This document shows, one piece after another, positions 5,336-59,695 of a stretch of 64,000 bases of DNA. The notes under the pieces are model-generated. The model was given only the letters and a program-made list of their open reading frames with translations. It had not been told where the DNA came from and made no database searches. Position 1 is the stretch's first letter. Every line of letters begins with the position of its first letter. The stretch spans positions 1 through 64,000 of the forward strand of contig JAKAGV010000015.1 of NCBI GenBank assembly GCA_021815405.1, in the 5' to 3' direction. The DNA is from Bacteroidota bacterium. GTDB lineage: Bacteria; Bacteroidota; Ignavibacteria; Ignavibacteriales; Ignavibacteriaceae. The translations under genes and the position numbers were made by a program.

Positions 5336-7141
5336 TTATTCTACATTTTTCAGGATCTGCAGAAACTGATTTGCATCAACATAACCTGTTAACCTTTTTA
5401 CTTCTTGTCCTTTCGAGTTGACAATAATGACAGTTGGGACGCCAACAATGTCGTATTTATTTCTTAGTGCTTCGACTTCCGGCGAAAGAGATTTGGTCAT
5501 GTTCGCCTTAAATGTTAAGAAGTCTTTAGCTGTATTTATAACACTTGGATCTCTGAAAGTAGATGCATCAAGTTCTTTACATGGAATACACCAGTCGGCA
5601 TAAAAATCAATAATCATTCCTTTGCTGGTGCCAAGGCTGGCGAGAGATGTATTGGCAGTATATGGTTTCCAATTTATCTCCTGAGTTCGCGAAGGAATTA
5701 AGGAATAAATTGCAACCGCCATAATTATAATTGAAAATGCAATCTTGAAGATTCTAAATCCTCTTATCTTATTTCCAAACTTTTCAAATATTAAAAGATA
5801 GAGCCCGGTAATTATCATAAATGCCGGCAGCAGATAACCGGAAAAACTTTTTGGCAAGAGCGGAAGCAAAAAATAAATTGCCATTCCTAAAAGAATAAAT
5901 CCGAAGATATGTTTGACAGCTTCCATCCACTCGCCGGACTTCGGCAGCTTTTTAATCTTACCTGAAAATACCGCAAGCACTAAATACGGCAAGCCTAATC
6001 CAAGTGCTAAAACAAAAAACATCAAGAAACCATAATAAGGATCAGCCTTAGCAGCAACAAAAGTAACCAAGCCCAAAACAAAAGGACCGATGCATGGTGC
6101 GGCAACAATTCCCATTGTTAATCCCATAAAGAAGGCGCCGTAATATCCGTTTTTGGCTCCGCCGGCTTTTGCTACTATTGAATTTGGAAGCTGAAATTCA
6201 TAGACTCCGAACATGCTTAATGAAAGCACGACGAATACCGCTGCAATAAAAATTATTACGTAACTGTTTTGTAGCAGCGAGCCGAACACCGCACCGCTTA
6301 ATGCTGTAACAACTCCGATAACCGAATAAGTAATTGCCATTCCTACAACGAAGAAAACTCCCATCATAAAAAGTTTCTTTGTGCTTCCTTCGCTTTGCCC
6401 GCCGAAGAAACCGACTGTAATTGGAATTAAAGGATAAACACACGGCGTAAGGTTAAGTGCGAGACCGCCAAGGAAAACAAATATTAAGCTTAATAATAAT
6501 CCGCTATGCTCTAAAACCGAGGTAATTGAATTATTATTATTCTGTGTGCCGGAAATTTTTTGTTGAGTTATTCCTAAATCGATGTTCTTAAAAATATCCT
6601 GATTAATTTCTGAAATGGCTGCTGACTTCGGAACGACTTCAACTTGAAGAGTATCTTTCGCTGTTGTGGGTGCAAGGCAAGTCTGATTATTGCATGACTG
6701 ATATTCCAGCTCAACCGGAAGAGAATATTTTCCCGGAGCTAAATCTTTCGGAACTTCAACTATTCCGCCGAAATAAATTTCACCTTCCCAAACAGAAAGA
6801 GGCTTATCGGAAAAACTTAACTTAACTTCCTGGGCTTCCGGATAAACAATCTTAGACAGAATAAATCCATTCGATGAATCAATCGTCACTTTTGATGGTA
6901 TAAGAAAATCCTCATGCGGCTTATCTGAGTTTATATGCCAGCCGCTGTTTATATCCGCCTTAACAGCAAGCTTAAATTCACTTCCCGCATAAACTTGATT
7001 TAACGAGTTATACGCTTTTATTGAAACAACACTTTTAAATATTTGTGCGAAATTGGATTGTGTGAATCCGACTAATAAAAGTACTGACGCAAAAAGGATT
7101 ATTCTTTTTTTTATCATTTTATTTCTGCTGTTAAAATTCAT
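5336..7141 (-). CDS. dsbD: Thiol:disulfide interchange protein DsbD
   Basis: A 601-residue protein with the full DsbD layout. A signal peptide (to about residue 33) leads to a periplasmic alpha domain with the Cys pair SCNNQTC. An eight-segment membrane domain follows, with the two redox cysteines in LTPCVYPLIP and AAPCIGPFVLG. The C-terminal thioredoxin domain has WCIPCK near residues 517-521. DsbD carries electrons from cytoplasmic thioredoxin to periplasmic proteins such as cytochrome c maturation factors. The start is uncertain: MIKKRII nine codons in is an alternative, and neither has a strong ribosome site. All key cysteines are present. Confidence 0.94.
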   Translation of the reverse strand: MNFNSRNKMIKKRIILFASVLLLVGFTQSNFAQIFKSVVSIKAYNSLNQVYAGSEFKLAVKADINSGWHINSDKPHEDFLIPSKVTIDSSNGFILSKIVYPEAQEVKLSFSDKPLSVWEGEIYFGGIVEVPKDLAPGKYSLPVELEYQSCNNQTCLAPTTAKDTLQVEVVPKSAAISEINQDIFKNIDLGITQQKISGTQNNNNSITSVLEHSGLLLSLIFVFLGGLALNLTPCVYPLIPITVGFFGGQSEGSTKKLFMMGVFFVVGMAITYSVIGVVTALSGAVFGSLLQNSYVIIFIAAVFVVLSLSMFGVYEFQLPNSIVAKAGGAKNGYYGAFFMGLTMGIVAAPCIGPFVLGLVTFVAAKADPYYGFLMFFVLALGLGLPYLVLAVFSGKIKKLPKSGEWMEAVKHIFGFILLGMAIYFLLPLLPKSFSGYLLPAFMIITGLYLLIFEKFGNKIRGFRIFKIAFSIIIMAVAIYSLIPSRTQEINWKPYTANTSLASLGTSKGMIIDFYADWCIPCKELDASTFRDPSVINTAKDFLTFKANMTKSLSPEVEALRNKYDIVGVPTVIIVNSKGQEVKRLTGYVDANQFLQILKNVE

Positions 7142-7267
7142 CTAACTTTGCTTTATTGTTTTAAAGTTAATGTAACTCCTATAACGTAGATTCAACAGAT
7201 TATTTCAGATATCAAATCGGTGATTATCAGTGTAATCAGCCTAATCTGTGTTCCATTGATTTAATAA

Positions 7268-7422
7268 CTCACGTTACGCACATGTCATGCTGAACTTGTT
7301 TCAGCATCCCAGAAATGCTGAAAAATGAGATTCCGAATCAAATGCAGATCCCGGATCAAGTCCGGGATGACATGGTTCGGAATGACAAAGTAAATTAGAT
7401 CCTTAATTGTGCGTAACGTAAG
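7268..7422. mobile_element. MITE-like element, family 1, copy 1 (155 bp)
   Basis: Left end CTCACGTTACGCACA and right end TGTGCGTAACGTAAG are inverted repeats with one mismatch. Both sides carry the 7-bp direct repeat TTAATAA (7261-7267 and 7423-7429), a target-site duplication. The core holds hairpins around TGCTGAA...TTCAGCA and CCCGGATCAAGTCCGGG. No coding capacity. It lies 10 nt past the nadE stop. Confidence 0.88.
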
Positions 7423-7432
7423 TTAATAAAAT

Positions 7433-10022: not shown

Positions 10023-10054
10023 ATACTTGGAGTTTTAATTAAATACCTTATTAA

Positions 10055-10470
10055 CTTACGTTACGCACAATTAAGGATCTAATTTACTTTGTCATTCCGA
10101 ACCATGTCATCCCGGACTTGATCCGGGATCTGCATTTGTTTCGGAATCTCATTTTTCGAAATGTTTTTAGATGCTGAATTAAGTTCAGCATGACATATGG
10201 GGCTGTCCAAAAAGTAGAGTAGAAGTCATTGCGAGGAGTGAAACGACGAAGCAATCTTTTGTTTTTAATTCAAAATTCAGATCACTTCGCTTCACTCGTG
10301 ATGACAAAATTACTTTTTGGTCAGCCTCCAAATTAAGAGAATATTAGTTTGTCATTCCGAACCATGTCATCCCGGACTTGATCCGGGATCTGCATTTGTT
10401 TCGGAATCTCATTTTTCGAAATGTTTTTAGATGCTGAATCAAGTTCAGCATGACATGTGCGTAACGTGAG
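10055..10470. mobile_element. MITE-like element, family 1, copy 2, with internal duplication and nested element (416 bp)
   Basis: Ends CTTACGTTACGCACA and TGTGCGTAACGTGAG are inverted repeats. The flanks are TTATTAA (10048-10054 and 10471-10477), a perfect 7-bp duplication. The core is inverted relative to copy 1 and is present twice (10091-10196 and 10351-10456, 106 bp with one mismatch). A different inverted-repeat element lies between the two cores. Confidence 0.85.
10201..10326. mobile_element. Second inverted-repeat element nested in MITE copy 2 (126 bp)
   Basis: Left end GGCTGTCCAAAAAGTA and right end TACTTTTTGGTCAGCC are inverted repeats matching at 15 of 16 positions. The inside is a loose palindrome around GTCATTGCGAGGAG and no ORF is seen. 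It separates the two 106-bp core copies. No target duplication is evident. Confidence 0.7.
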
Positions 10471-10477
10471 TTATTAA

Positions 10478-11154: not shown

Positions 11155-12099
11155 ATGAAAACTAAACATATTTTCTGGGGATTATTTTTTATCTCACTGG
11201 GTGTGCTGATACTTTTATATAATCTTAACGCAGCCTATTTTGATCTTTCGAACATCTGGCAATTTTGGCCCCTAGTAATTATTCTCTGGGGAATCTCCTA
11301 CTTTACCAAGAATGTTGTTTTAAAAGGATTTATTGCCGCGTTAGCTGCAATTATTTTGGCTGTTACTCTTTTTGCTGCTTTCAATTCTTCGTTTTTATTC
11401 TTTAACGATGCTTTCTCTATTCATGATTCCGATTTTAATATTACATTGAACGGCAATTCCGATACATCAAACTATTCGGAGAGCTTTGATTCTAATATCA
11501 AAAATGCACAGTTTACCTTGAAAGCTGGAGCCGGAGCCTTTTTAATCAAGGATTCTACCGATGAGCTTATCTCCGCTGTTGCTCAGGGCTATAAGAATAC
11601 TTATGAATTATCGAGAAATGATTCAGGAGAAAATACTGTTATAAATATGAAAATGCTGAAACGCAGCTTTACCTTCGGAGACGGTCATAACAAAAATAAA
11701 CTTTTATTAAAGTTTAATACTGCGCCGGTTTGGAATCTGAATTTCGATATCGGTGCTGCTTCTGCTGATTTCGATCTTTCCCCATTCAAAACTGAAAATG
11801 TTAATATTAACACCGGCGCTGCTTCATTAAAGATAAAACTTGGTGATAAAGTTGATATTTCAAATGTGAAAGTAAAAGCTGGTGCTTCAAGTATTAATAT
11901 AGAAGTTCCTGATTCAGCCGGATGCGAAATAAAAACAAGCACTGCTCTTTCATCAAGAGATTTTGACGGATTCGATAAGGTCAATTCTAATTTGTATAGA
12001 ACCGACAACTTCGACTCTGCTAAAAAGAAAATTTACCTGAAAATTGATACTGGAATTTCTTCCATTCATATAACCAGGTATGGAAGCGGTTGGGAATAG
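11155..12099 (+). CDS. LiaF-like membrane protein with beta-helical (toastrack-type) domain
   Basis: 314 residues. Three to four membrane helices (residues 7-80, including FWPLVIILWGISYF) precede a soluble part made of repeating short beta segments (FTLKAGAGAFLIKDSTDE, NINTGAASLKIKLGDK, VKVKAGASSINIEVPDS), each with an AGA/GAAS turn. That is the pattern of the LiaF C-terminal and DUF4097 'toastrack' domains. It follows the PspC-domain gene by 17 nt, with GAGAGAGG as ribosome site. The pair probably monitors envelope damage; no two-component partner is adjacent. Family good, role inferred. Confidence 0.82.
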   Translation: MKTKHIFWGLFFISLGVLILLYNLNAAYFDLSNIWQFWPLVIILWGISYFTKNVVLKGFIAALAAIILAVTLFAAFNSSFLFFNDAFSIHDSDFNITLNGNSDTSNYSESFDSNIKNAQFTLKAGAGAFLIKDSTDELISAVAQGYKNTYELSRNDSGENTVINMKMLKRSFTFGDGHNKNKLLLKFNTAPVWNLNFDIGAASADFDLSPFKTENVNINTGAASLKIKLGDKVDISNVKVKAGASSINIEVPDSAGCEIKTSTALSSRDFDGFDKVNSNLYRTDNFDSAKKKIYLKIDTGISSIHITRYGSGWE

Positions 12100-12122
12100 A
12101 TCAAGGCTGCTGTTATTTAAAA

Positions 12123-12146
12123 CCCCTTCTTGTTAAAAAGAAGGGG
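12123..12146 (-). terminator. Rho-independent terminator
   Basis: CCCCTTCTT-GTTAAA-AAGAAGGGG is a 9-bp stem. On the minus strand TTTTTAAA follows, so it would end the unknown gene at 12239; the convergent LiaF-like gene may share it. A repeat element lies between this hairpin and the minus-strand stop. Confidence 0.6.
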
Positions 12147-12158
12147 AAAAAAATGATT

Positions 12159-12227
12159 GGCAGCGTCCTAATTTGACTTTGTAATCCCGAACTTGTTTCG
12201 GGATCTAATTCAAATTAGGACACTACC
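12159..12227. repeat. Inverted-repeat element with TCCTAATTTGA ends (69 bp)
   Basis: GGCAGCGTCCTAATTTGA at the left and its inverted copy with two changes at the right (12210-12227) enclose a smaller hairpin (ATCCCGAACTTGTTTCGGGAT). It lies between two convergent genes and has no coding capacity. Confidence 0.65.
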
Positions 12228-12238
12228 GAACCTTAATT

Positions 12239-12943
12239 TTAAGCTTGCGGAGGGGTGCTTGGTTTATCCTGCTGAGGATCTTCATTATTACTGCCGTTTG
12301 TTCCCCATGGTGAATCAAATAAATGAATCTTTACGGAATCTTCGGCATAAGCCTGCCTTCCGGCATTATTAACTGCATTTACTCGGTTATATACTTTCGA
12401 TTGGGCAATATATCTTTTAACAGTGTATGATTCGTTATTCTTCTTCATATCTTCCTGTTGGTTATTCAGATCATCAAGCTCCGTAAGCAATGCAGAGCCT
12501 TCAGTGTCGAATGTCTCCGGCATTTCTTTATCAACAAGCGCTGTCTTATTTTTTACAATAATATCTATTGCGATAGGCATAATATTAATCATAATTGCCT
12601 CGCTGCTTTTTGCCGCGGCTAAATTTTGTGGGAATATTTTTGCATCTGCGGAATCAGGCTTTACAATTTTTTCATAAAATGTTTTCGCCCTTTTCATCCA
12701 GTTAAAGCATTCTTTAAGCTTTTTGTTTTTTGTTTCCGTTAATGCCGCAGCTTCTTTTTTTATCTGCTTGTCGGTTTTATAAGTCTGGACGTCAGTTAAT
12801 TCCCCCTCGAACTCGGCTAAGTATTTTGCGCCGATACCAAACTTTACAAGCTCGATATTTTCTCTCGCAATCTTTAATACATTCTTACCGATTTCAATTA
12901 ATTTTGGGAGTGTAACCGGAATTGGTGTGTCCTCTTTTTTCAT
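12239..12943 (-). CDS. Unknown helical protein
   Basis: About 234 residues that I do not recognise. It is highly helical and charged, with Lys/Glu-rich stretches around residues 60-90 (KQIKKEAAALTETKNKKLKE) that could form a coiled coil, a helix with IMINIMPIAIDIIVKNK in the middle, and a disordered Pro/Gln/Asn tail (NNEDPQQDKPSTPPQA). No signal peptide. The longer reading from 13000 lacks a ribosome site, whereas GGAG lies 7 nt before the ATG at 12943. It is a single gene between repeats. No function is proposed. Confidence 0.7.
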   Translation of the reverse strand: MKKEDTPIPVTLPKLIEIGKNVLKIARENIELVKFGIGAKYLAEFEGELTDVQTYKTDKQIKKEAAALTETKNKKLKECFNWMKRAKTFYEKIVKPDSADAKIFPQNLAAAKSSEAIMINIMPIAIDIIVKNKTALVDKEMPETFDTEGSALLTELDDLNNQQEDMKKNNESYTVKRYIAQSKVYNRVNAVNNAGRQAYAEDSVKIHLFDSPWGTNGSNNEDPQQDKPSTPPQA

Positions 12944-13905: not shown

Positions 13906-14017
13906 TTTATCCTCCGTTGTCTAAACCATGATTTTCCGGATTTTAGGATTTACATGATGAAAAATATCTGAACCGGAATTATCAAGATTTCTATATTAAC
14001 TTGGTTAAATTTAATAA

Positions 14018-14172
14018 CTCACGTTACGCACATGTCATGCTGAACTTGATTCAGCATCCCAAAAATGCTGAAAAATGAGATCCCGAATCAAATGCAGATC
14101 CCGGATCAAGTCCGGGATGACATGGTTAGGAATGACAAAGTAAATTAGCTCCTTAATTGTGCGTAACGTAAG
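14018..14172. mobile_element. MITE-like element, family 1, copy 3 (155 bp)
   Basis: Same ends and orientation as copy 1. The left flank is TTAATAA and the right flank TGAATAG, so the 7-bp duplication has two mismatches. This is the only decayed duplication of the seven, suggesting an older insertion. It lies between divergent genes. Confidence 0.82.
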
Positions 14173-14326
14173 TGAATAGTTCAAATAAATTATATTTAAT
14201 TCTCTCCAAACTCGTTTTCAATATTCCACTCTCAACTGTGTTTTATTTTCATTTCCGACTCAATTATCTCTTTTATTATCTTCCTCACTTGCACTTTATC
14301 ATTTTATTTTTATCTTCTTTAACCCG

Positions 14327-14552: not shown

Positions 14553-15839
14553 TTGAATAAGAAACTAGATTCTATTTTTAATTCGTTCGTCAAGTGGTCG
14601 GCTCCCTGGTACGGAGCTTATGCTATACTTGGCGCTGTTACCGCTGCGTTGATCCCTGTTCTGCTTCCGCTTTTGATAATGTCTTCTTCCGGTAATATTG
14701 CCGATGTAGGCTGGATAATGGGCTGCTATAATTTAGGATTGCTTTCATCACCGTTATGGGGCAGCCTTGCAGATAAAAAGCATATGCACCGTTCTATTTT
14801 TTTCAGCGGCTTTGTAGTCCTAATTATCGGAATGACTCTGCTTCCATTCTGCCGTTCGCTTATCGCTTTTATAATAATTGCAATGTTAATCGGCGCTGGT
14901 ACCGCAGCAATTGCAACTGTTGCATCATTATTCATAGTCGAATTCTTTCCTCAGTCCGAGTGGTCTAATAGAATCGGCTGGCTGCAAAGTTACAACGGCG
15001 CCGGGCAGGCTTTAGGGCTCTTCCTTGCTGCTTTCTTTTCAGGAAATAAAATGTTTAATACCGGAATGTGGTTTGGTGCCGCTTTACTTCTGCCGGCAGT
15101 TTTAATCGGTCATCTCGGGCTTCCTGTTAAAAAAGCCAAGGAGCATAAGGAAAGAATCATTCATGCTTTAGACATTCGGAAAATTGCAAGGTTCGGCAAA
15201 ACAGAATTCCTCGGCGGAGGTTTCCTGCGGCATTCTCATCACCTGAATTTAGCCGCATTAAAAAAACTGGGAAAATTACTTCCTACTGATTTCGGATATT
15301 TTATTCTTTCTTGGTTTATTTCTTCGTTCGGTGTAGCGGCTTTTTTTGCTTACTTCCCCATCCTTATGAAGTCTGCTTATTTCGTTTCGCCGGGATTAAC
15401 TTCACTTATTTATGCTATTGCCGGAGGCATTGGTATTGCATTATATACAGGCAGTACAAAACTCTCTAACCGTTTCGGCGTAAAAAAAGTTTTTCGTTAC
15501 GGTATCATGTTTAGATTGACAGGCTTTCTTTTATTGTTAATAATGATTTATACCCCCTCTTCTATTACACCGTTAATTGCTTGCGTCGGTTTTACTTTTA
15601 TCGTTTTAGCCTGGCCGGTAATTAGTGTTTCCGGTACAACTTTAACTGCAGAGTTGACTCCAGTCAGCGAAGGTGAAGCTATGGGACTCTATAATGCTTC
15701 CAGTGCAATTGCAACTGTAATTGGTACTTTTGCCGGCGGACCATTAGTTAATATAATCGGTTACAGTGCAATTTCTATTTTAGGTTCTGCCGGTTTAATA
15801 TTAGCCCTGCTCTTTACCTCGAAGATAAAACAGATTTAA
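14553..15839 (+). CDS. Major facilitator superfamily transporter
   Basis: 428 residues with 12 predicted membrane helices and the loop 2-3 motif (WGSLADKKHMHRS, around residue 67) of the MFS. A central loop near residues 190-230 is basic and His-rich (RHSHHLN). Substrate unknown; it could be a drug or sugar-type efflux or uptake carrier. The start is a TTG: an in-frame TAA at 14532 limits the frame, no ATG occurs before the first helix, and only a weak GAGAG precedes it. A MITE follows 54 nt after the stop. Confidence 0.85.
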   Translation: MNKKLDSIFNSFVKWSAPWYGAYAILGAVTAALIPVLLPLLIMSSSGNIADVGWIMGCYNLGLLSSPLWGSLADKKHMHRSIFFSGFVVLIIGMTLLPFCRSLIAFIIIAMLIGAGTAAIATVASLFIVEFFPQSEWSNRIGWLQSYNGAGQALGLFLAAFFSGNKMFNTGMWFGAALLLPAVLIGHLGLPVKKAKEHKERIIHALDIRKIARFGKTEFLGGGFLRHSHHLNLAALKKLGKLLPTDFGYFILSWFISSFGVAAFFAYFPILMKSAYFVSPGLTSLIYAIAGGIGIALYTGSTKLSNRFGVKKVFRYGIMFRLTGFLLLLIMIYTPSSITPLIACVGFTFIVLAWPVISVSGTTLTAELTPVSEGEAMGLYNASSAIATVIGTFAGGPLVNIIGYSAISILGSAGLILALLFTSKIKQI

Positions 15840-15893
15840 GCTTTATTTGCAGAATATATTTCTCAATTAGTGAATGTATTGCAGTCTTAGTAA

Positions 15894-16050
15894 CTTACGT
15901 TACGCACACATGTCATGCTGAACTTGTTTCAGCATCCCAAAAATGCTGAAATATGAGATTCCGAAACAAATGCAGATCCCGGATCAAGTCCGGGATGACA
16001 TGGTTCGGAATGACAAAATAAATCAGATCCTTAATTGTGCGTAACGTGAG
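15894..16050. mobile_element. MITE-like element, family 1, copy 4 (157 bp)
   Basis: Ends CTTACGTTACGCACA and TGTGCGTAACGTGAG. The perfect 7-bp duplication TTAGTAA lies at 15887-15893 and 16051-16057. It abuts the 21-bp array that begins near 16057, 54 nt past the MFS stop. Confidence 0.88.
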
Positions 16051-16056
16051 TTAGTA

Positions 16057-16539
16057 AGGTAAACAGAATCAAAAAGCTTCATTTTTGATCAAAATTTCGG
16101 CTTTTCTGATTCCAAAAGTGATATTTCGCAACAAAATTGTGGAATTTCAGTACTCAAAAACGGAATTTCACCTCACGAAAGTTGCTCTTTAGCAAACATC
16201 AGCAGATTTTCAGTACTCCTAAGCGGAATTTCAGTGCTCGAAAGTTGCTATTTAGCAAACATCGGCGGTACTTCAGCTCTCATTAACGGAATTTCAGTAT
16301 TCATAAATGGAATTTCACCTCACGAAAGTTGCTATTCAGCAAACATCAGCAGAATTTCAGTGTTCGAAACTTGCTATTTAGCAAACATCAGCGGTACTTC
16401 AGTACTCCTAAGCGGAGTTTCAGTACTTATAAATGGAATTTCAGTACATTAAAAAGTTGTTTCATCACACGTAAGATTTTTTTTAGAATACCCCGTTTGA
16501 AGTTTAAGTCTTATAAAAGGTCTTTCACAACTACATGAT
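16057..16539. repeat. 21-bp periodic degenerate array, locus 1
   Basis: From 16099 to about 16455 the sequence divides without a gap into 21-bp units, for example GGAATTTCAGTACTCAAAAAC at 16141, a variant ending CCTCACGAAAGT at 16162, and TGCTCTTTAGCAAACATCAG at 16183. Three unit types recur in a loose order; the TGCTATTTAGCA type is itself a small hairpin. Weaker units continue to about 16540. Frames stay open (GTG start at 16234, 72 codons of heptapeptide repeats), but that follows from the period being a multiple of three. Confidence 0.85.
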
Positions 16540-16645: not shown

Positions 16646-17026
16646 TTATTTCATCCTTCGCTTAGGCGGCTTCCACAAATATTTATCCATCTTAACGCAT
16701 CCATCCTTATCAAACTCAACTCCCTCGGAGCGAAGTAGATCAGCCATTATAAACGGATCTCCGAAATGGTGCTTGCCTGTTAAAGCGCCAAACCTGTTCA
16801 CGACGCGGTGACAAGGCAAACCGGAATCTTTAGCTCCGTTTAATGCCCAGCCTACAGTCCTTGCCGATGACCTGATTCCGCATGCTTCCGCAATGTCCCC
16901 ATAAGTAGCAACCATGCCGTATGGAATCTTCGCCACGATTTTATATACCCGGTCAAAAAAATCTTCCCTGGAATTTTTCTTTTTCGCTGAAGCTTTTTTC
17001 TCGCCCGTGCTCTTACTCTTGTTCAT
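16646..17026 (-). CDS. MGMT-family DNA-binding methyltransferase-like protein
   Basis: 126 residues equal to the C-terminal DNA-binding domain of O6-alkylguanine-DNA alkyltransferase, without the N-terminal domain. The winged-helix segment ATYGDIAEACG and arginine finger SARTVGWAL are present, and the active site reads PCHRV with Cys72. Alkyltransferase-like (ATL) proteins of this size usually have Trp in place of that Cys, so this copy may still remove alkyl groups rather than only flag lesions for excision repair. The N-terminus is Lys/Ser-rich and probably flexible. A single gene, convergent with a 21-bp array. Confidence 0.85.
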   Translation of the reverse strand: MNKSKSTGEKKASAKKKNSREDFFDRVYKIVAKIPYGMVATYGDIAEACGIRSSARTVGWALNGAKDSGLPCHRVVNRFGALTGKHHFGDPFIMADLLRSEGVEFDKDGCVKMDKYLWKPPKRRMK

Positions 17027-17220: not shown

Positions 17221-17270
17221 ATAAAATAAGAAAGTAAATCAAACCTTATTACATTATTTTATGTTACTTA

Positions 17271-17425
17271 CTCACGTTACGCACATGTCATGCTGAACTT
17301 GATTCAGCATCCCCAAAATGCTGAAAAATGAGATTCCGAATCAAATGCAGATCCCGGATCAAGTCCGGGATGACATGGTTCGGAATGACAAAGTAAATTA
17401 GATCCTTAATTGTGCGTAACGTAAG
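17271..17425. mobile_element. MITE-like element, family 1, copy 5 (155 bp)
   Basis: Ends CTCACGTTACGCACA and TGTGCGTAACGTAAG, with perfect 7-bp duplication TTACTTA at 17264-17270 and 17426-17432. Same orientation as copies 1 and 3. It lies about 160 nt past the prfB stop. Confidence 0.88.
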
Positions 17426-17587
17426 TTACTTATATTTCGACAATCATCTTTTAGACGATTCCTTTGAGAAAGTATAGAGATACATTCATGCTTCTAAATT
17501 TTTTTCTATTCAAAAAGCATGTGTTCGAATTCAATTACTTCTATTCTTCTCTCTCTGCGCTCTGCTCTATGCGCTTAGCCGTATGTG

Positions 17588-18689
17588 TTAGTTTTGGTTG
17601 AACTTCATCAAATACGCCTTGATAAACCTATTCAAGTCTCCGTCCATTACTCCCTGCACATCCGATGTTTCTTCCTCAGTGCGGTGGTCTTTAACCATAT
17701 TATATGGATGAAAAACATAAGATCGAATTTGACTTCCCCACTCAATTTTCATTTTACTTTTCTCAACCTCGTCCTGCGCAGCTTCCTGTTTTTCTCTTTC
17801 AATCTGGTAAAGCTTTGATTTAAGCATCTTCATTGCATTAGTTCTGTTTTGAAGTTGCGATCTTTCATTCTGGCAGGCAGCAACAACTCCGGTAGGAATA
17901 TGAGTAATACGGACTGCGGTTTCTACTTTGTTTACATTCTGTCCGCCTTTACCTCCAGAACGGTATGTATCAATTCTTAAATCCGCAGGATTTATTTCAA
18001 TCTCTATTGTGTCATCAATTTCCGGTATTACAAATACCGAAGCAAATGATGTATGCCTTCTTTTATTTGAATCGAACGGAGAAATTCTTACAAGTCTGTG
18101 TACGCCATTCTCAGCTTTCAAATAACCATAAGCAAACTCACCTTCGACCTCAATCGTAACACTTTTAATTCCGGCTGTGTCACCTTCGAGAATATCAACA
18201 ATGGACATCTTGAATCCGTTCTGCTCACCCCAGCGGAGATACATTCTCATCAGCATCTCAGCCCAGTCCTGAGCTTCCGTTCCTCCGGCACCTGAATGAA
18301 TTGTTAGTATGCAGTTTCTGCCGTCGTCCTTCCCGCTCAGCATATTTTTGAATTCTGCATTTTCAATAGCAGATTCCAGCGATTTTAATTCATTTCCAAT
18401 CTCGCCAGTAAATGAACTATCCTCTTCTAACTGAGCAAGTTGAATAAACTCTTCAAGGTTCTGTGCCTTCTTATCCAGTTCCTTCCATAAATCAACCCAA
18501 GTTTGAAAGGATTTTATCTCAAGTAAAATCTGCTGTGCTTTTATCTGGTCATCCCAGAAATTTGGCTCAGTTGTCTTATGTTGAAGGTCTATAATCTTTG
18601 CATCTTTATTATCGACGTCAAAGAAAACCTCGTAGCTTATTAATTCGTTCCTTATACGTATTTAATTGTTTTAATTCATCTTCGAACAT
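17588..18689 (-). CDS. prfB: Peptide chain release factor 2, with programmed +1 frameshift
   Basis: RF2 recognises UGA and UAA at the ribosome. The first frame (ATG at 18689) gives 23 codons, [10 protein letters not shown]...KLRGFL, and then meets TGA at 18620-18618. Skipping one T (18620) continues as [13 protein letters not shown]... to the stop at 17588, about 366 residues in all, the normal RF2 length. The site reads CTT TGA C, preceded by the Shine-Dalgarno-like CGAGG, as in known RF2 autoregulation. The catalytic GGQ is in [11 protein letters not shown] and the SPF stop-codon tripeptide in RISPFDSNK. Joined parts: 18621-18689 and 17588-18619. Confidence 0.97.
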
Positions 18690-18739
18690 TAGTACCTCTG
18701 TGTGTCTGTCTTAGTTAATTTAAAAAAGTTATTTAATAA

Positions 18740-18861
18740 CTCACGTTACGCACATGTCATGCTGAACTTGTTTCAGCATCCCAAAAATGCTGAAAAATGA
18801 GATTCCGAATCAAGTTCGGAATGACAAAGTAAATTAGATCCATAATTGTGCGTAACGTGAG
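18740..18861. mobile_element. MITE-like element, family 1, copy 6 (short form, 122 bp)
   Basis: Ends CTCACGTTACGCACA and TGTGCGTAACGTGAG. Perfect 7-bp duplication TTAATAA (18733-18739 and 18862-18868). It lacks the CCCGGATCAAGTCCGGG hairpin of the long form. It lies 50 nt before the prfB start, so it may touch that promoter. Confidence 0.87.
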
Positions 18862-18963
18862 TTAATAAATAGAGTATATGTATATCCCGGTATAATGGTA
18901 TAATGGTATAGTGGTTGCACGCAAACTTATACCTTATAACTATATACCTTATACCCATATACC

Positions 18964-48138: not shown

Positions 48139-48369
48139 ACTGTAATGCCTCTCGAAACTTGCTGTTTAGCAAACATCAGAGGAATCCCGGCTCTACTAAG
48201 CTCAATCCCGGTGCACAATAATGAAGCCCCATTTCTCCTAAAATTTATTCTCTCAGAACTAATCCGTACTTCTTCCTTACTAAGCTTTATCTTCGATTCA
48301 ACATTCTGAACTTTGAATGAAAGCGAATGACTCTTGAATGAAACTGCTTTGCTTTTAATTCTCCGACAA
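48139..48369. repeat. 21-bp periodic degenerate array, locus 3
   Basis: Units of 21 bp start at 48139, 48160 (TGCTGTTTAGCAAACATCAG), 48181 (GGAATCCCGGCTCTACTAAG), 48202 and on to about 48349. The TGCTNTTTAGCAAACATCAG unit and the ACTAAGC unit ends are the same words as in locus 1, 32 kb away. No ORF of note. Confidence 0.75.
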
Positions 48370-59531: not shown

Positions 59532-59552
59532 TTCTTATATATTACTCCGTAA

Positions 59553-59674
59553 CTCACGTTACGCACATGTCATGCTGAACTTGATTCAGCATCCCAAAAA
59601 TGCTGAAAAATGAGATTCCGAATCAAGTTCGGAATGACAAAGTAAATTAGATCCTTAATTGTGCGTAACGTAAG
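59553..59674. mobile_element. MITE-like element, family 1, copy 7 (short form, 122 bp)
   Basis: Ends CTCACGTTACGCACA and TGTGCGTAACGTAAG. Perfect 7-bp duplication TCCGTAA at 59546-59552 and 59675-59681, clearly different from the other sites, which fixes the element boundary. Same short form as copy 6. It lies 21 nt past the sugar porter stop. Confidence 0.9.
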
Positions 59675-59695
59675 TCCGTAATTCAAATTATTATT

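Follow-up and report, generated by a model that had tools for sequence, protein, structure and literature searches.

The array described here, from an uncultured Ignavibacteriales-type bacterium, lies in a gap between two convergent open reading frames (ORFs) of the window, i.e., the whole analysed stretch of 64,000 nucleotides. To its left is a gene for an MFS transporter (14553-15839, + strand), and to its right is an MGMT-type gene with a DNA-binding domain (16646-17026, − strand), beyond which a release factor gene is located (PCRF/RF-1; 17588-18343, − strand). Pfam searches with six neighbour proteins identified MFS, the MGMT-type DNA-binding domain, PDDEXK_3, PCRF/RF-1, and an AtuA-type ferredoxin domain, and one protein gave no hit. 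A dispersed MITE-like element, about 173 bp long and with inverted ends of 23 nt, occupies 15886-16058, outside the array. The same element was found at 7261-7429, 10044-10199, 10344-10477, 14011-14173, 17264-17428, 18733-18868, and 59549-59681, and 22 matches of at least 120 bp were present in 1,164,297 bp of this genome, with the first 20 kb of the window accounting for seven.

The main array (16141-16455; no strand assigned) consists of 15 contiguous, gapless units of 21 bp, amounting to 315 bp. This length and the unit types A, C, B, and G agreed with the preliminary description. The unit order is A C B A E B G A C B E B G A A, where E denotes an A-like unit with a GAAAGT or GAAACT ending. 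The first type B unit, TGCTCTTTAGCAAACATCAGC, is located at 16183-16203, and the others start at 16246, 16330, and 16372. The extent given in the preliminary description was real but too short, as decayed units continue in phase on both sides. On the left (16099-16140), the unit at 16099, 40 bp from the MITE-like element, is clear and that at 16120 is weak, with profile scores of 9.0 and −4.4 bits; the fractions of window positions elsewhere scoring as high were 0.0001 and 0.021, respectively. On the right (16456-16539), the unit at 16456 is clear (10.7 bits), those at 16498 and 16519 are weak (1.6 and 1.1 bits), and that at 16477 is the weakest (−5.1 bits). The units at 16099 and 16456 outscored about 99.99% of the other window positions, indicating that the array extends past 16141-16455.

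Unit order and internal block duplication

The order of the units in the main array is modestly beyond chance. The diagonal correlation, which relates the similarity of units i,j to that of units i+1,j+1, was 0.347, compared with a permuted mean of −0.012; this value was reached by 46 of 20,000 permutations, and a repeat with 5,000 permutations gave a p value of 0.0028. The non-random order is due to an internal duplication, which was directly observed by self-alignment: 16141-16317 aligned to 16288-16443 at 79% over 177 columns, with the second copy one 21-bp unit shorter (156 vs 177 bp). The copies are offset by 147 bp (7 units) at their left ends and by 126 bp (6 units) at their right ends. 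Consistent with this, units 1-4 paired with units 8-11 (offset 7) and units 6-8 with units 12-14 (offset 6) in the unit similarity matrix. The mean unit identity was 11.4/21 at a unit lag of 1, 15.1 at lag 6, and 14.8 at lag 7; the blocks are more alike than neighbouring units, as in higher-order repeats. A block of about seven units is thus duplicated in the main array, and one unit has been lost or gained.

According to the preliminary description, type B always follows a unit ending in GAAAGT or GAAACT, and G follows two of the B units. Both statements held: the four B units follow the four units with such endings (units 2, 5, 9, and 11), for which the chance is 7.3e-4 under random unit order, and G-type units starting at 16267 and 16393 follow two of the four B units. 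Because unit borders are arbitrary, the former rule is equivalent to one longer two-unit composite being kept. This syntax had been attributed either to growth by copying of multi-unit blocks or to selection on pairs of units. Block copying is backed by the self-alignment described above, and also by an 84-bp duplication of four 21-bp units at another locus of the genome (L022; 91%), by a repeated block, recognised by eye, in an array of another species (L192b, G008), and by the comparison of sister arrays between species described below. Selection on unit pairs is not needed to account for the order and gained no positive support: the column conservation of the main array did not deviate from a tree-aware neutral simulation (p 0.42), and within-unit pairing was not above that of column-permuted controls (210/300 and 130/300 as high). 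The hairpin ascribed to type B is possible, with a 5-bp stem and a 4-nt loop, but weak. Folded as DNA in five B contexts, it gave −2.9 to −5.5 kcal/mol (z −0.26 to −2.00), and 6 to 72 of 200 shuffles folded at least as well.

A profile scan of the window placed the best blocks outside the main array at 48139-48285, which we read from its unit sequences as a putative relic array of the same family. It contains a GAAACT-ending unit, a well-kept B unit at 48160-48180, and diverged, in-phase A-like units at 48181, 48202, 48223, and 48265 (10.0, 1.5, 3.5, and 0.5 bits, respectively), while the unit at 48244 does not score. The stretch 48152-48182 showed 94% identity to the B region of the main array by BLASTN, and the B unit is identical at 19/21 positions to B units 3 and 12. 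The C-B-G order had been said to recur at a third locus, which we take to be 48152-48182. The GAAACT-ending unit and B are indeed present there, but neither G nor C can be assigned: the unit at 48181 has 13/21 matches both to G unit 13 and to A-like unit 4 and starts with GGAAT like A, and the unit preceding B agrees with C units 2 and 9 at no more than 11/21 positions. Between the two loci, B is far better kept than the units after it. This preservation beside drifted neighbours is not expected from block copying and later drift, and would point to recent conversion or constraint of B.

Period-21 arrays in the genome and its relatives

A lag scan (lags 10 to 60) of 1,164,297 bp of this genome (G000), comprising 57 stretches including the window, revealed a period of 21 or 42 at 13 loci: the window, L015, L021, L024, L027, L029, L051, L052, L066, L075, L076, L077, and L080. 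Other lags were found in L047 (A-rich, many periods), L053 (11), and L055 (24), in addition to an off-by-one 41 in L015, and 21/42 was the only period found at more than one locus. L015 is not strictly periodic at 21, with phase drift and periods of 62 and 83, and was excluded from the unit-based tests for this reason. Non-coding DNA other than the 13 arrays showed slightly raised lags of 11 and 22 (4 and 5 places, respectively). With Tandem Repeats Finder, the window, L015, L021, L022, L027, L050, L051, L052, L075, L076, and L077 had periods of 42, 62-63, or 83-84; those of 83-84 (L022 and L050, the latter with 83) are beyond the range of the lag scan. The count of 13 is subject to a sampling bias, as contigs 3 and 25 were chosen for known arrays; the 783,297 bp taken without prior knowledge of arrays (L043-L082) contained seven of them. 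Each of the 13 arrays sits between longer ORFs. Their unit sequences mostly differ, and BLAST of their 500-bp flanks found no flank common to all, with 7/13 having a flank that matches dispersed repeats. Dispersed repeats of about 125-145 bp were also noted in L066 (16871-17016) and L027 (about 6553-6677) of this genome, the latter also being widespread in G003. Short arrays of 11 or 22 bp occurred in two species, at 10919-10964 of L017, 17384-17428 of L056, 7369-7506 of L053, and 1315-1369 of L120 (G009); those of L017, L056, and L120 share the core ACGTTTTC.

A test of unit order against random order, which covers part of the check proposed in the preliminary description, was applied to 12 of the 13 period-21/42 arrays and gave p < 0.05 in seven (window, L021, L027, L051, L066, L075, and L080; Fisher 1e-9), while L024, L029, L052, L076, and L077 did not reach this level. 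Among eight further arrays, L142, L144, and L192b had p < 0.05 (Fisher 2.0e-5; 8.6e-5 without L144), and L135, L167, L169, L182, and L192a did not. The test also reacts to edge decay, and several arrays, including L169 and L182, were found by lag 42, which favours dimer order in it.

BLASTN of the main array against 97 genomes gave matches in three, its own included; the matches in the other two (L009 and L010) appeared chance-like on inspection and were rejected. An exact pattern scan of named genomes returned 0 matches, and the plasmid and phage collections contained no match to the array. Of 13 genomes of the genus, the one with the main array included, 12 yielded the MGMT gene; in the 11 besides this genome, the release factor gene always accompanies it. 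No period-21/42 array was present beside the MGMT gene in these 11 stretches, ten of which reach at least 637 bp past the gene on the array side and one (L038) only 161 bp. G007 carries a counterpart of the contig-25 array at the corresponding place, past the same gene (gene DNA identity, 86%). The order of the right-hand units is kept in both arrays except for the gain or loss of one unit, and the left-hand part in G007 consists of alternating units not seen in G000. Turnover between species was thus directly observed in a sister array. A second strain of the species, in which copy number could be compared as for VNTR-type arrays, was not found. Beyond the same gene, nine other stretches of the genus (L145-L152 and L154) contained no array, and L153 ends 36 bp beyond it. 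Relatives of this gene were encoded at nine loci of named records, which are Bacteroidetes bacterium or Ignavibacteriales bacterium assemblies. One of them, JAJYIL010000345.1, carries the G007 array letter for letter, and the other eight contain no array.

Samples of three members of the genus, G007 (115,308 bp), G008 (93,204 bp), and G012 (99,854 bp), also contained period-21/42 arrays. None was detected in the samples of G004 (128,885 bp), G006 (81,333 bp), G003 (177,011 bp), G009 (200,000 bp), and G013 (200,000 bp), and in that of G018 (200,000 bp), lags 21 and 42 arise within 7-bp arrays. In this family-level relative, heptanucleotide arrays (ACAATTC, ATAATTC) were observed at 11790-12334 and 15207-15297 of L094. 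Other lags in the samples of relatives were 12 (G003), 22 (G009), 10-12 (G013), 57 (G008), and 14, 22, 28, and 53 (G018). A literature search, which had most subscription papers outside its reach, found no title on 21-bp arrays in Ignavibacteria.

Coding potential, structure, and column conservation

Since 21 bp corresponds to seven codons, the main array could be imagined as a repeat of seven residues in a small gene or in the remnant of one. From 16063 to 16449, one frame runs across the array without a stop, and the matching frame is likewise free of stops in the first units of the relic at 48 kb. However, the differences among the 15 units were distributed over the codon positions as 293/324/260, showing no codon-position bias, and the openness of the frame was that expected under column permutation (P 0.62). 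The only listed ORF of at least 70 aa begins inside the array (16234, 72 aa); the start codon before the repeat and the codon-position bias expected of a heptapeptide-repeat gene were not found. In 7/12 arrays, every frame contains at least one stop, and the fewest stops in any frame were no fewer than in column-permuted sequences in any of the 12 (P 0.28-0.98). Five arrays (window, L027, L051, L052, and L066) contain small ORFs of 72-91 aa. A coding repeat was rejected for the main array on the even codon positions and on stops no fewer than in permuted columns; the array looks non-coding, and a gene origin is highly improbable. In the related 21-bp arrays L022 (17456-17720) and L024 (13580-13810; contig 25), a corresponding frame is free of stops in both and its residues look similar by eye, which runs counter to a non-coding reading, and no start-codon ORF of at least 75 aa covers either array.

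A structured RNA at the main array was likewise rejected. Rfam gave no match there, the + strand folded better than 100 of 100 shuffles (z −2.75), a score of the kind that repeats inflate, and the − strand was unremarkable, with 27/100 shuffles folding as well. Predicted promoters and terminators were at or below the shuffled level. Curved DNA was discarded as a candidate, as base composition contained no 10.5-bp component. Quasi-palindromic units beyond 300 column permutations were detected in L021, L066, L075, and L076, and L077 was marginal (11/300 with 7-bp arms, 125/300 with 5-bp arms). Palindromic units are not a general feature, being absent in the other 7/12 arrays tested, the main array included.

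Column conservation bears on whether the arrays serve a DNA-binding protein or nucleoid factor as clustered binding sites, with a core and a variable linker in each unit and a unit of two helical turns placing all sites on the same DNA face. In all of these tests, units matching the consensus at fewer than 11 positions were dropped, and L080 was excluded from the 10.5-bp and tree-aware tests because it has fewer than eight units. Conservation was uneven among columns in 15/20 arrays under a naive null (at most 16 of 2000 as uneven), and 6/19 arrays (L024, L029, L066, L144, L167, and L192a) had p < 0.05 in the tree-aware neutral simulation (Fisher 2.7e-5); the clearest kept core, with about six free positions, was that of L167 (G012). 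These results are only suggestive of constraint in a subset of arrays, because fewer changes arose in the simulation than in the real arrays and the 19 arrays include two related pairs (L027/L144 and L052/L167). The conservation profiles were enriched at 21 and 10.5 bp compared with column permutation (0/2000 each), which, together with the sole recurrent period of 21/42 and the quasi-palindromic units of four arrays, would suit a binding-site cluster. The 10.5-bp excess, however, is indistinguishable from mere contiguity of conserved columns: 34 to 77 of 500 random profiles of similar smoothness reached it, and there was no autocorrelation peak at lag 10, so that a helical footprint was rejected. 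The excess was also absent in the six arrays of other species taken alone (126/2000). Furthermore, base composition carries no helical component, one sequence-reading protein would not suit arrays that differ in sequence, and the main array has neither core constraint nor palindromes. We therefore consider binding-site clusters an unlikely explanation. A broader proposal seems quite unlikely: bacteria of an Ignavibacteriales-type lineage would maintain tens of intergenic arrays in which the unit length stays fixed at two helical turns, with sequence free between loci and a constrained core in each. If true, it would amount to a chromosomal system of fixed spacing and flexible sequence, such as one in which a nucleoid or looping protein recognises its sites by phase more than by sequence.

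Origin of the arrays and of their period

With its head-to-tail units in the 10-60 bp range and its position in a non-coding gap, the main array falls among bacterial intergenic minisatellites. It is probably a non-coding, satellite-like minisatellite that evolves by copying of multi-unit blocks. Blocks would be copied or lost through slipped-strand replication or unequal recombination between in-register units, so that the register stays while the units drift apart, and the surviving order would be a record of past block copies. The occurrence of B after GAAAGT or GAAACT would then be a linkage inherited inside a copied block and not a grammar read by some machinery, and copying of small blocks between loci would account for the 48-kb relic. 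We infer this enzymology, as well as the source of the fixed period discussed below, from the arrangement of the units. The main array would need no function, and some sister arrays may have gained constrained cores. Several points stand against this explanation: some arrays may be non-neutral, as suggested by the six that went beyond the neutral simulation; the B unit of the relic is much better kept than the units after it; no significant order was detected in 5/12 and 5/8 arrays; slippage does not explain the recurrence of the same period; and five arrays contain small ORFs, with a corresponding open frame in L022 and L024.

For the period, the reason that we prefer, and one compatible with block copying, is that all or most arrays descend from a single ancestral 21-bp family scattered by small-block copying, the period being inherited and not imposed; we put the chance of this slightly below even. 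Units are related between some loci, with 15/231 pairs above z 3. Related loci included the window and the 48-kb relic, L029 and L142, L015, L133, and L066, the window and L142, L052 and L167 (the latter from another species), and L024 and L022 (71% over 233 columns). The other 216/231 pairs do not exceed z 3, and a few of the 15 may be due to chance because the null is skewed. Two of the top four pairs (L027-L144 and L052-L167) are between species and are silent on dispersal within a genome, and a consensus and one single unit, rather than profiles, represented L015 and L133 in the comparison. This one genome harbours many satellite-like arrays that have the same period but different sequences, with block-wise unit order and some sharing between species. 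How bacterial minisatellites gain and lose blocks, and why the period is 21, is thereby directly testable by comparison of species and by population long reads.

Several known systems resemble these arrays in part. In eukaryotic higher-order satellites, e.g., alpha satellite, multi-unit blocks of diverged monomers are amplified together. The main array likewise contains blocks of diverged monomers, whereas the monomer here is 21 bp, the arrays comprise about 10-20 units, and they lie between bacterial genes. Plasmid iterons and partition-site arrays are direct repeats of about 20-22 bp in register. The arrays described here share the in-register direct repeats but occur as many different arrays in one genome, and no rep or par gene was found among the six neighbour proteins of the main array. 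In a viral collection searched for ATTTCA at 21-bp spacing, two of the three viewed among the matches listed resembled coding repeats by eye, and the search was uninformative because the stretches had been chosen for that spacing. One viral record (L273, 1-126) has six perfect, iteron-like 21-bp direct repeats at a contig end.

BrickBuilt of Porphyromonas gingivalis is an intergenic minisatellite with a 23-nt unit repeated head to tail without spacers at many loci per genome, and forms one sequence family inside a MITE with leader and tail parts (PMC4596501). The arrays of this study share with it the intergenic position, a unit of about two helical turns, the spacerless head-to-tail arrangement, and the many loci (PMC4596501). 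They differ from BrickBuilt as described there in their period of 21 and in unit sequences that mostly differ by locus, and the main array lies outside the inverted ends of the neighbouring MITE-like element (PMC4596501). Archaeal Borg elements are described as carrying perfect tandem repeats of several unit lengths, among them 18, 20, and 21 nt (PMC9879509). Like the repeats described there, the arrays occur in many places with differing units, some of them intergenic, and turn over fast between relatives; unlike them, they are decayed and nearly all of one unit length (PMC9879509).
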